A DNA stretch of 63,117 nucleotides from Candidatus Salinicoccus stercoripullorum (GTDB taxonomy: Bacteria; Bacillota; Bacilli; Staphylococcales; Salinicoccaceae): assembly GCA_019113295.1 (NCBI GenBank), contig DXHR01000028.1, positions 1 to 63,117 of the forward strand. Reading direction: 5' to 3'. The notes below the pieces were generated by a model that was not told the DNA's origin, searched no databases, and worked only from the letters and a program-made list of their open reading frames with translations. This document shows, in pieces, positions 16,289-28,784 of this stretch. Position numbers and translations under genes: made by a program. Numbering within the stretch: the first letter of the stretch is position 1; the number at the start of each line of letters is the position of its first letter.

Positions 16289-16317
16289 TTGACTTTCAAA
16301 TGAAGTACTGATATCAT
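16289..16317 (+). promoter_or_regulatory. promoter of the pheA leader transcript
   Basis: TTGACT (16289-16294) and TATCAT (16312-16317) are separated by 17 bases. Transcription would start near 16324, leaving a short untranslated stretch ahead of the leader peptide ATG. Confidence 0.65.
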
Positions 16318-16350
16318 TTGTTACAATCTTAATTGAATTGAGTGATACTT

Positions 16351-16410
16351 ATGTCAAACACATATATGCAGACTCAATCGAATACTTTCTTTTTCAGCGA
16401 TTTTAGATAG
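16351..16410 (+). CDS. PheL-like leader peptide (19 aa)
   Basis: A 19-codon reading frame lies between the promoter and pheA. Its second half reads TFFFSDFR and then a TAG stop, so four of its last seven codons are Phe. A weak GAG site sits eight bases before the ATG. The stop codon directly abuts the first strand of a series of mutually exclusive hairpins ending in a terminator. By analogy with the enterobacterial pheA leader, its job is to let ribosome stalling at Phe codons report charged tRNA-Phe levels; the peptide itself needs no other function. Confidence 0.8.
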   Translation: MSNTYMQTQSNTFFFSDFR

Positions 16411-16522
16411 CGTCTATATTCCATCGTGGATATAGGCGGCGCGCATATATCTATGATGGCTGATTTGGACATGCAAATTTTCAAAATCCGGCCATGGAGC
16501 GATCTGAATGGCTGGATTTTTT
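16411..16522 (+). promoter_or_regulatory. phenylalanine transcription attenuator of pheA
   Basis: Five segments pair in alternative ways. Segments 1:2 are 16411-16423 with 16427-16438 (one bulge). Segments 2:3 are 16421-16438 with 16442-16459, an 18-bp stem with one mismatch and a 3-nt loop. Segments 3:4 are 16456-16466 with 16484-16495, the antiterminator. Segments 4:5 are 16483-16495 with 16508-16520, a 13-bp terminator followed by a T-run. A ribosome paused at the Phe codons leaves segment 1 free, so 1:2 and 3:4 form and transcription continues. A ribosome at the stop codon hides segment 1, so 2:3 and the 4:5 terminator form. Confidence 0.8.
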
Positions 16523-16534
16523 CATTACTTTTTT

Positions 16535-16577
16535 AACCATTCGGGTTCCTTCTGCAGGCGGGTCCGGGTGGTTTTTT
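16535..16577 (+). terminator. second terminator-like hairpin before pheA
   Basis: A 14-bp stem rich in G-U pairs (16535-16548 with 16560-16573) is followed by T residues to 16577, only 15 bases before the pheA ribosome binding site. It may be a backup terminator or a structure that limits leader read-through. Confidence 0.5.
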
Positions 16578-16605
16578 ATTTCACAAAATTCGAGGAGTGG
16601 TTTTT

Positions 16606-17460
16606 ATGTTGATTGGATATCAGGGAGTCGAAGGGTCGTACAGTGAGCTGGCTTGCAGAAAGTTTGCAGGCGGATCAGAATACCGGATGAAAGGCTACCC
16701 GACCTTCAGGACCCTCGTTACGGCAATGATGGACGGGGAACTCGATTACATTGCACTGCCGGTGGAAAACTCCACAAGCGGGCCGATTACGCGTACCATC
16801 GATCTGATGAAATATCTGGAAGTTTCAGCTGTCCGGGAAGTGTACATCAAAATTGACCATGCGCTGATTATGAAATCCGCTGCGGAAATGTCCGAAATCT
16901 CCACTGTCTACTCCCACCCCGAAGCGCTTGAACAGTGCTATTCCTATTTGAGCGAATATCCGAACATAGAAGTCCGTGAATATACAGACACTGCCGAAGC
17001 GGTGAAGATGGTGAAAGAAGCCGGTGATCCCCGCATCGCCGGAATCGCAGGCAGCCATGCCGCAGCTCTGTATGATATGACCGTCATTCGCAGGAACATC
17101 AGTGACAACCCGCTCAATACCACACGGTTTTTATTCTTCCGCAGGGGTGTGCAGGGCCCGCGGCCGGAAACGAATAAAACATCGCTGTACATCGAATCCG
17201 ATCACAGCACCGGCTCACTGAGCGAAATCCTGAATATTTTCAGCCGGCACGGCATCAATCTGCTGAACCTCACCTCCCGCCCTATCCAGCACAAGCCATT
17301 CTCCTACGGGTTCTTCATCGATGTCGAAAAAGGCAGAGAAGACTCCGTGCTGGCCGAGGCATTGGAGGATATCGGGCAGGTGAGTAAATATATAAATATG
17401 CTGGGCACATATCAGAAAGGCGAGATTCCGTCCTACAAGGGGGTTCTGGTGAATGAGTAG
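16606..17460 (+). CDS. pheA: prephenate dehydratase
   Basis: This 284-aa enzyme converts prephenate to phenylpyruvate, the committed step to phenylalanine, in the cytosol. The catalytic domain (residues 1-180) shows the N-terminal YQGVEGSYSE, the conserved LPVENSTSGPI near residue 50 and NTTRFLFF near residue 173, whose Thr is essential in the family. A C-terminal ACT domain (from about residue 195) has SLSEILNIFSRHGINLLNL and SRPIQ, the usual phenylalanine feedback site. GAGGAG eight bases upstream selects ATG 16606. It is controlled by a Phe attenuator and overlaps the downstream symporter gene by eight bases. Confidence 0.95.
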   Translation: MLIGYQGVEGSYSELACRKFAGGSEYRMKGYPTFRTLVTAMMDGELDYIALPVENSTSGPITRTIDLMKYLEVSAVREVYIKIDHALIMKSAAEMSEISTVYSHPEALEQCYSYLSEYPNIEVREYTDTAEAVKMVKEAGDPRIAGIAGSHAAALYDMTVIRRNISDNPLNTTRFLFFRRGVQGPRPETNKTSLYIESDHSTGSLSEILNIFSRHGINLLNLTSRPIQHKPFSYGFFIDVEKGREDSVLAEALEDIGQVSKYINMLGTYQKGEIPSYKGVLVNE

Positions 17461-18682
17461 TATTTTGACATCCAAAAAGCACCTTTTTACGCGTATTTCA
17501 ATAGGTTTTGCACTGGGAATACTCATGGGAATCCTGCTTCCCGGTTTTTCCATACAGACAAAATTCGTCGGTGATATCTATCTCAATCTGATTCAGATGA
17601 TGATCATACCGGTCATCTTCGTCGCGGTGTCCGGTGGCATCATCAATATTGGCAGCACAGAGGACCTTGGGAGGATCGGGCTTAAAAGTGTGGTTGTTTT
17701 TGTCCTGATGTTCATTGCAACAGCAGCGATCGGCCTGATCATCTCATACATTGTAAGACCGGGGAATCATATAAATATTGATTCCCCCGGTTATGATGAA
17801 GAAGTCACTTCTCCCTCAGTCCAGGATTTCTTCATGAATATTGTTCCCGATAACATATTCCAGGCGATAAGTGACGGAGCCATACTTCCTACCATATTGT
17901 TTACTCTGCTGTTTTCTGTTGCAGTCGTCGCAGTCGGAAAAGAAGCTGAACCCGTCAGGATTTTTCTCAACAGTCTGTCCAAAGTGGTATTCAAGATCCT
18001 TGATTTCATCATGGAACTTACTCCCATCGGCGTGTTTTCGCTGATGGCATTTGCCATTGCCGAATACGGTGCAGCCATATTCTCCGCTCTGGGACTGTAC
18101 ATAATTACAGCCTGGGCAGCATGCATCATCGCTTTCATAATTGTCATGCTGCTGCCGGTCTGGTTATATGCCGGTCTTTCGCCGCTGCAGTTTATAAAAG
18201 GGATTTACAAAGTGTGGCTCGTTTCCCTTTCAACCACAAGTTCAGCTGTCACGCTCCCAACCAATATGCGCGTCAGCATCAATGATTTCAAAGCACCTGA
18301 ATCTATCACAAACTTTGTCGTACCTCTGGGTACAACGATCAATATGGCCGGAGGTGCGATTTCCTTCAGTCTGTTAGCGGTATTTGTCTCCGACTTCTAT
18401 CAGATCCCCCTCAGCGTTCCGGAAGTCATATACCTTGTAGTCATTGCCACCATTCTTAATATGGCAGCGCCCGGAATTCCGGGGGGAGGCATAGTGCTCG
18501 GCGCCTCTTTCCTGACATTGCTCGGACTTCCCATAGAACTGATGGGACCAATCGCCGCCATTTACAGACTTCTCGATATGGCATATACAACTATGAACGT
18601 GACAGGAGATGCAGCAGCAAATCTGTTGATTTCAAAATCGGAAGAAAAACGTATGTACAAAGATAGACGAGTCTCCACATAA
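17453..18682 (+). CDS. DAACS-family amino acid:cation symporter (non-acidic substrate)
   Basis: This 409-aa membrane protein has the GltPh/DctA fold: hairpin 1 with SLSTTSSAVTLP, helix 7 with PLGTTINMAGGAI, hairpin 2 with NMAAPGIPGGGIVLGA, and helix 8 with LDMAYTTMNVTGD. Helix 8 carries Tyr where acidic amino-acid carriers have the carboxylate-binding Arg (GltPh R397), and the sodium-site motif NMDGT is NMAGG. It probably takes a neutral, perhaps aromatic, amino acid (inference). Its ATG lies within the last codons of pheA, so it is translationally coupled and under the same Phe attenuator. Confidence 0.85.
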   Translation: MSSILTSKKHLFTRISIGFALGILMGILLPGFSIQTKFVGDIYLNLIQMMIIPVIFVAVSGGIINIGSTEDLGRIGLKSVVVFVLMFIATAAIGLIISYIVRPGNHINIDSPGYDEEVTSPSVQDFFMNIVPDNIFQAISDGAILPTILFTLLFSVAVVAVGKEAEPVRIFLNSLSKVVFKILDFIMELTPIGVFSLMAFAIAEYGAAIFSALGLYIITAWAACIIAFIIVMLLPVWLYAGLSPLQFIKGIYKVWLVSLSTTSSAVTLPTNMRVSINDFKAPESITNFVVPLGTTINMAGGAISFSLLAVFVSDFYQIPLSVPEVIYLVVIATILNMAAPGIPGGGIVLGASFLTLLGLPIELMGPIAAIYRLLDMAYTTMNVTGDAAANLLISKSEEKRMYKDRRVST

Positions 18683-26655: not shown

Positions 26656-26675
26656 AGTATTATTCTAAATTAAAG

Positions 26676-28784
<2,109 letters not shown>

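Follow-up and report, generated by a model that had tools for sequence, protein, structure and literature searches.

The window, by which we mean the whole stretch of DNA analyzed (63,117 nt), comes from a Salinicoccus contig; the genus is filed under Staphylococcaceae by NCBI, and the PheA encoded in the window is 93% identical to the PheA proteins of S. sediminis and S. carnicancri. Upstream of pheA, the gene for prephenate dehydratase, lies a leader with a promoter, a short Phe-rich open reading frame (ORF), eight RNA segments with alternative partners, and two hairpins that end in U-runs (Table 1). An earlier note, made from the sequence alone, had described the promoter, the 19-codon ORF with its Phe codons near the stop, and five of the segments. 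The promoter and the ORF were both borne out; hexamers comparable to those of the window promoter were seen by eye in leaders L002, L006, and L018 only. The symporter gene that overlaps the end of pheA is probably cotranscribed with it and would fall under the same attenuator. Elsewhere in the window there is a purine riboswitch (26659-26759, 77.1 bits).

Table 1. Features of the pheA leader and flanking genes in the window, with the positions of the RNA pairings.
Feature	Position	Strand	Remarks
Promoter, sigma-A type	16289-16317	+	TTGACT-17-TATCAT; TG precedes the second hexamer; 10/12 matches
Possible weak stem over leader start (alpha:beta), arm	16337-16343	+	partner 16372-16378; by eye
Shine-Dalgarno-like GAGTGAT of leader ORF	16340-16346	+	sequence; invariant G-n-GTG columns in alignment A1
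Leader ORF, MSNTYMQTQSNTFFFSDFR and stop, 19 codons	16351-16410	+	19 codons in 20/21 leaders, including the window's own; 18 in L015
Sensor codons 13-15 (Phe-Phe-Phe)	16387-16395	+	middle Phe in 21/21; FFF in 15/21
Segment 0 (last leader codons)	16394-16409	+	partner: segment 3 at 16448-16463; compensatory changes across the family
Segment 1	16411-16423	+	partner: 2
Segment 2	16421-16438	+	partner: 1 or 3
Segment 3, three-way switch	16442-16472	+	partner: 0, 2, or 4
Segment 4	16477-16498	+	partner: 3 (antiterminator) or 5 (terminator 1)
Segment 5 with U-run 16517-16522	16501-16522	+	partner: 4 or 6; U-run of at least 4 in 18/21 pheA leaders
Segment 6	16532-16551	+	partner: 5 or 7
Segment 7 with U-run 16572-16577, second terminator	16556-16577	+	U-run of at least 4 in 20/21 pheA leaders
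Pairing 1:2	16411-16421/16428-16438		
Pairing 2:3	16421-16438/16442-16459		17 pairs and one mismatch
Pairing 3:4	16456-16472/16477-16495		
Pairing 4:5	16483-16498/16503-16520		then T run to 16522
Second terminator with own U-run	16535-16577		before pheA
pheA, prephenate dehydratase	16606-17460	+	PF00800, E 1.1e-54; NF008865, 207.1 bits, below cutoff of 219
Sodium:dicarboxylate symporter family gene	17453-18682	+	PF00375, E 4.9e-105; overlaps pheA end

One hundred relatives were screened, 68 genomes had a PheA match, and the upstream regions of the best 30 matches, all in family f1, were read. All 12 g1 genomes and all 9 g6 genomes had the leader directly before pheA (21 of 21 loci, our own genome included); it was absent from that position at all 6 g2 loci, both g5 loci, and the single g3 locus (0/9 overall). 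The g3 genome does carry a leader of this family, upstream of an aroF-pheA operon; three g4 genomes had no PheA match. Group g1 is Salinicoccus, as eight Salinicoccus loci share match coordinates with G001, G004 to G008, G010, and G011; g6 may be Jeotgalicoccus, f4 may be Gemella, and f29 may be Streptococcus.

In the 21 pheA leaders, the codons matching 14 and 18 encode Phe in all, codon 15 encodes Phe in 20, and the stop codon is always TAG, while the first half of the ORF varies in sequence. Among 825 ATG-initiated ORFs of 10 to 30 codons in the window, three have at least four Phe codons in their last seven, and at least two of these three are nested starts of the pheA leader itself; when the window was shuffled five times by mononucleotide, none occurred. 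With a folding energy of -59.6 kcal/mol (z, -3.22), the 217-nt leader is more stable than all 200 of its shuffled versions. Extended Shine-Dalgarno pairing is used by S. aureus (PMC13009471). The alpha:beta stem at the start of the leader is weakly supported (own partner, -8.5 kcal/mol; swapped, -7.3; shuffled, -5.3; 21 loci).

Pairings conserved in the pheA leaders

Across the 21 pheA loci, the mean duplex energies of neighboring segments, from 1:2 through 6:7, were -14.0, -20.8, -13.8, -15.4, -17.1, and -18.1 kcal/mol, compared with -3.1 to -9.7 kcal/mol for all nonneighbor combinations of segments 1 to 7. RNAalifold gave an extra helix, 0:3, in which the leader codons AGC-UAU-UUU-AGA pair with segment 3. 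The four pairings claimed earlier (1:2, 2:3, 3:4, and 4:5) are present in the window and conserved in the 21 pheA leaders; the five-segment device into which they had been assembled did not stand, since 0:3, 5:6, and 6:7 also belong to it. The downstream extension was made on the grounds that 5:6 and 6:7, like 4:5, show both pairing and covariation.

Covariation of 0:3, 1:2, and 2:3 was assessed in a structure-blind alignment (A6) of 38 hand-chosen leaders out of 77, without the seven symporter leaders of family f4, L160, and further copies. For 0:3 and 1:2 together, 94.7% of cells were paired, versus at most 43.4% when the arms were slid, and two-sided changes were seen in 15 of 26 pairs, a result reached by 0 of 500 shuffles. 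For 2:3, the corresponding values were 88.9% versus at most 55.9%, with two-sided changes in 7 of 12 pairs; 15 of 500 shuffles reached this count of pairs and none the count of cells. The remaining pairings were assessed in the 21 pheA leaders. Those of 3:4 and 5:6 had 92.1% of cells paired and two-sided changes in 6 pairs, all of them in 5:6; 79 of 500 shuffles reached 6 pairs, and none reached the cell count (19 versus 8.2). Those of 4:5 and 6:7 had 87.7% of cells paired and 10 two-sided pairs, a number reached by 10 of 500 shuffles, with a cell count exceeding all 500. Slid versions of both sets paired in at most 54.8% of cells. The covariation and Phe codon conservation that the earlier note had asked for in aligned pheA leaders were found, with one restriction: every other pairing has compensatory changes, and 3:4 alone has one-sided changes only.

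Helix 0:3 was stronger with its own partner in 2,851 of 3,436 swaps, with 68 ties (L160, whose frame passes the usual stop by three codons, was left out of this count and of the sensor counts below). It is written, for example, as UUCAGC/GGCUGA in pheA leaders and as UUUAGC/GGCUAA elsewhere; further versions are AGAUA/UAUCU, UGAUAC/GUAUCA in aroF leaders, and AGCUAUCGCAGGUA/UACUUGCGAUGGCU in L149. Covariation on both sides of a competition, here 0:3 with 1:2 against 2:3, is what one would expect of an alternating switch. An automated search for both hairpins in 76 leaders picked wrong helices in many loci, and nothing here is built on it. In that search, mean 5:6 energies of -15.9, -15.7, -16.4, and -11.5 kcal/mol in pheA, aroF, aroE, and trpX-type leaders (shuffled, -8.6, -8.2, -9.2, and -6.2) suggest that 5:6 is present in all four groups; the same error-prone search did not show 5:6 in the f4 symporter leaders (-6.7 versus -5.2 shuffled). 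In alignment A1, L020 is misaligned near segment 1.

Hairpin 4:5 lacks a U-run of at least 4 in L015, L020, and L021, and by eye it likewise appears without one in the aroF leaders L084 to L089. In such leaders, 4:5 would be a relay and 6:7 the terminator.

Sensor codons and the pairing arm

The codons of segment 0 form the arm of 0:3, and the three codons before the arm can be compared across 76 leaders. Aromatic residues fill 212 of 228 of these sensor positions, versus 19 of 841 earlier positions. The middle sensor codon differs between groups of leaders: it encodes Phe in pheA leaders (21 of 21) and f4 symporter leaders (7 of 7); Tyr in the aroF leaders of Salinicoccaceae (28 of 28), aroE-aroF leaders (6 of 6), and TrpX-type leaders (12 of 12); and Trp in the symporter leaders of Salinicoccus (4 of 4; NIWYSYR). 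Outside this set the code is looser: L160 has Y-S-F before SYF, and L146, L147, and L148 have Y-F-Y, with Tyr present but Phe in the middle. The Phe sensor codons alternate between TTT and TTC, and the Ser codon of the arm, which could be any of six, is AGC in 21 of 21 pheA leaders. Synonymous drift in the sensor, absent from the arm, makes it seem that the sensor codons are selected for the amino acid they encode and the arm codons for their RNA sequence.

This distinction bears on a different explanation, that of an arrest peptide, in which the nascent FFFSYFR would stall the ribosome on free Phe or Tyr rather than on uncharged tRNA, in the way that TnaC stalls the ribosome with Trp. In its favor, the C-terminal S-Y-F-R is strongly conserved across the family. 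However, residues of a TnaC-type peptide would be conserved independently of the RNA, and here they change with their pairing partner: segment 3 changes along with SYRR in L149, SFFR in L168, SYY in L095, GYY in g5, and a UGA stop in aroF leaders, and even the VPF of f4 keeps a pairing, though a weaker one. The invariant AGC beside drifting Phe codons also argues against this model, and the sign of the response would be reversed for biosynthetic genes. We consider an arrest peptide very unlikely.

A proposed kinetic switch

We consider it very likely that the pheA leader senses how much Phe-tRNA is available and controls transcription by ribosome-mediated attenuation, through a three-state kinetic choice, and that it is built on a chassis that, with swapped sensor codons, would also serve other aromatic amino acid genes in Bacilli. 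The stalling logic put forward in the earlier note is in this respect supported, by Phe at codon 14 in 21 of 21 leaders and by the conserved pairings. The leader has several features expected of such an attenuator: a short, putatively translated ORF whose last part contains codons for the regulated amino acid; a mutually exclusive terminator and antiterminator with compensatory changes, although 3:4 itself has one-sided changes only; and a downstream gene that makes or imports the amino acid (pheA by PF00800; the substrates of the transporters elsewhere in the family are putative). The ORF, its Phe codons, the mutually exclusive pairings, and the two U-run hairpins are there to be read, and from them we infer the dynamics.

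The leading edge of a ribosome lies about 15 nt past the first P-site base. When Phe is low, a ribosome waiting with Phe codon 14 in the A site would have its edge at 16402 and would cover most of segment 0, freeing segment 3 from 0:3 while leaving segment 1 open. Pairing 1:2 would then form and keep segment 2 off segment 3, 3:4 would block terminator 4:5, 5:6 would block terminator 6:7, and pheA would be transcribed. A ribosome with the stop codon in its A site would instead have its edge at 16420 and cover most of segment 1, so that 2:3, 4:5, and 6:7 would form and transcription would terminate. Without translation, 0:3 enclosing 1:2 would hold segment 3, and both terminators would form.

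Since the terminators prevail at equilibrium nearly whatever the ribosome does, the choice has to be a kinetic one. In equilibrium folding of the full-length RNA, 4:5 and 6:7 were found in nearly every locus regardless of the mask, the exceptions being L020, which lacked 4:5 under the F14 mask, and L011, which was mixed; a purely thermodynamic switch was ruled out on these grounds. We also applied a cotranscriptional folding heuristic to 10 of the 21 pheA loci at two barrier thresholds (6 and 9). Under the F14 mask, threshold 6 gave 1:2 and 3:4 without 4:5 in 6 of 10 loci (failing in L006, L015, L018, and L021), and threshold 9 gave 3:4 without 4:5 in 6 of 10 (failing in L001, L015, L020, and L021), with 3:4 standing beside 2:3 rather than 1:2 in L004. 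Masking the stop codon left 4:5 in place at the first terminator in 8 (in L015 with 5 pairs only) and 9 of the 10 loci at the two thresholds. With no ribosome, 0:3, 1:2, and 4:5 formed in 10 of 10 loci at threshold 9, whereas threshold 6 gave 4:5 in 6 of 10, which did not include L001. In L001, the window's own leader, the F14 state succeeds only at threshold 6 and the state without a ribosome only at threshold 9.

The distal part of the switch fared less well. When F14 was masked, threshold 6 yielded a complete 5:6 in 1 of 10 loci, with a partial one in a second, and threshold 9 yielded it in 4 of 10. A 6:7 terminator of at least 12 pairs formed in 4 of 10 at each threshold; read-through of the second terminator is therefore the least supported step. 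Taken as a whole, the parts list is solid, and the stepwise logic has moderate support.

A family of leaders before aromatic amino acid genes

The earlier note had treated the leader as a single oddity, which it is not: our own genome holds three copies, and the family is spread over Bacilli. A covariance model built from the pheA leaders alone (R1) found matches in 37 of 157 genomes of the order. Second copies turned up in 11 of 12 g1 and in all 9 g6 genomes, and other copies in g2 (6 of 6), g3, g5 (2 of 2), and family f4, where they lay in seven genomes of genus g9. The leaders found in this way precede DAHP synthase in 28 of 28 Salinicoccaceae loci compared; those of f4 precede a sodium:neurotransmitter symporter in 7 of 7 cases, and one f4 genome also has such a leader before a TrpX-type ABC transporter. 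HMMs served to identify eight of the downstream proteins encoded outside the window, and tblastn similarity to members of the set served for the rest.

The family also leads to an RNA already in Rfam. At a relaxed threshold, RF02863 ("Enterococcus sRNA 2410") matched the leader in L084 (E 5e-6), L095 (9e-6), L090 (1e-4), and L001 (0.026), all below the gathering score, and did not match the f4 symporter leader L093, one of the five sources scanned; the window copy scores 33.8 bits against a gathering score of 61. Searched in turn against 398 sampled Bacilli genomes, RF02863 gave 43 matches in 34 of them, 9 of the 398 with matches over the gathering score, and the best match (135.8 bits) was a copy before a TrpX-type ABC transporter (L150). 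R1 matched 77 of 78 loci at the expected place with E of 0.027 or better, including loci brought in by RF02863; L162, which it did not match, was left out of everything based on R1. A broader model, R2, hit the same 34 of 398 Bacilli genomes as RF02863, 30 of 33 genomes in the family of our own genome, and 3 of 299 in a phylum sample, all Bacilli. R2 was partly built from sequences that it matched, so that its scores for them are not independent, and one of the 43 rows of alignment A5 and R2 (L115) is on the wrong strand. Judged by sequence, the window leader is of the same RNA family as RF02863 through intermediate members, though it lies below that family's threshold.

The RF02863 RNA was described in E. 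faecium by RNA-seq and Northern blotting as a 195-nt sRNA with two transcripts and was tested for a response to daptomycin, according to the portion of PMC5593968 consulted, which names no leader ORF, gene context, or attenuation for sRNA_2410; its one-line Rfam listing, typed as "Gene; sRNA," names none of these either. That listing, and RNAs of the predicted size on those blots, would fit a trans-acting small RNA whose position before aromatic genes is secondary. Against this, a leader ORF was present in 40 of the 40 matches examined out of 43 (G321, G419, and G490 were left out), the pairings end in a terminator before the gene, and 59 of the 60 loci compared encode a relative of one of five reference proteins from this set (DAHP synthase, TrpX, the symporter, AroE, and PheA), the 60th encoding a transketolase. 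Twenty stretches derived from RF02863 all carry the ORF; 6 of them are followed by aroE-aroF, 12 by TrpX-type ABC transporters, 1 by a symporter (this is the third copy in our own genome), and 1 by the transketolase. The 40 matches with the ORF comprise 30 loci from the RF02863 search (29 by script and L148 by eye; seven more loci that the script read repeat places among these), eight more from the twenty stretches, and two pheA leaders. A trans-acting role is in our judgment highly improbable. We think it likely that ribosome-mediated attenuation runs here on a portable Bacilli chassis, in which two or three sensor codons are swapped for Phe, Tyr, or Trp, the SYFR codons form a pairing arm, segment 3 is a three-way switch, a domino passes through 5:6 to the distal terminator, and the RF02863 RNA is the attenuated product in Enterococcus- and Streptococcus-like genomes.

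That pheA is controlled by a T-box, the usual device in Bacillota, or by a ligand-binding riboswitch, with the ORF incidental, is barely credible: our own genome does have 14 T-box matches at E of 0.001 or less (one over the cutoff), but none of them lies on contig C24, RF00230 was not matched upstream of pheA, no Rfam family reached its gathering score on the pheA leader, and the frame, a near-constant length, and the Phe codons are kept in the 21 leaders. T-box and other Rfam families at the pheA leader were ruled out by these Rfam scans.

Like the enterobacterial pheA leader, the leader described here combines a short Phe-coding ORF with alternative pairings and an intrinsic terminator, and the his leader also has more than four segments. 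Unlike in enterobacterial pheA, the register here is inverted, in that segment 1 must be free for read-through, and the 0:3 helix would supply the off state without a ribosome. When five loci (L001, L084, L090, L093, and L095) were scanned against 4,227 Rfam families at E of 1 or less, no enterobacterial leader was matched, and a weak "trpB" motif (RF04312, E 0.82) was found in L001. The enterobacterial pheA, trp, and his leader operons are named in PMC1183508, and leader-peptide attenuation has been reviewed for Listeria, Lactococcus, Corynebacterium, and Streptococcus (PMC6123439).

Leader-peptide attenuation itself is already known in Staphylococcaceae, and the idea in the earlier note that this would be its first case there has to be given up: the S. 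aureus ilv-leu operon has a leader-peptide attenuator (Kaiser 2018; PMC5794164). The two are alike in having a leader rich in the regulated amino acid and a terminator and antiterminator, in a Staphylococcaceae genome and with no T-box. Compared by description, ilv-leu differs in that it responds to Leu and Ile rather than to aromatic amino acids, and the part of PMC5794164 consulted describes no seven-segment relay or second terminator. Another known system is uORFC-13-1, a proposed Phe-coding uORF with a terminator before aroF, the DAHP synthase gene, in Acholeplasma; again compared by description, it has 24 representatives, in Acholeplasma and environmental sequences only (PMC8632094). In the open-access literature searched, we recognized no description of the aromatic leader family; as far as that search reaches, the family appears to be new, as do the relay of eight segments and the reassignment of RF02863.

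Under this proposal, an Rfam family now listed as a small RNA would gain a function, and the aromatic amino acid genes of Bacilli would have another kind of RNA control in addition to T-boxes. Its predictions can be read from the codons: for pheA, Phe; for DAHP synthase and for transporters resembling TrpX, the tryptophan ABC transporter, Tyr with Phe; and for a sodium symporter, Trp-Tyr. If true, it would need a ribosome close to the polymerase, and it thus bears on whether transcription and translation in Bacilli are close enough for ribosome-dependent attenuation, which Johnson and others are said to have doubted for B. subtilis in 2020.

The third copy in our own genome (L149, G000:C36:29819-29949) lies before a sodium:neurotransmitter symporter gene and has the leader MFRIISTNIWYSYRR and stop; its Trp-Tyr sensor codons recur in 4 of 4 Salinicoccus symporter copies (L149 and L181 to L183), which suggests a putative Trp (or Tyr) importer. 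The leaders of the TrpX-like transporters have Tyr and Phe and no Trp in their sensor codons in 12 of 12 counted (L150, L153, L155, L157, L158, L161, L164 to L168, and L095), and the L150 transporter, at 338.9 bits, falls below the NCBIfam TrpX cutoff of 390; tyrosine may be the substrate or the signal. A search for prephenate dehydratase (PF00800) found none in 5 of 5 g9 genomes (G035, G037, G040, G042, and G044), and G035, G040, and G042 carry the same leader before a symporter, so that the leader there would be an importer version in apparent Phe auxotrophs. In L162 (G276:C39), an RF02863 match with a leader peptide ending in RYYYFGWFS stands directly before a transketolase gene; transketolase supplies erythrose 4-phosphate for aromatic synthesis. 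An FMN riboswitch lies near the f4 symporter locus L093 (446-570, minus strand).
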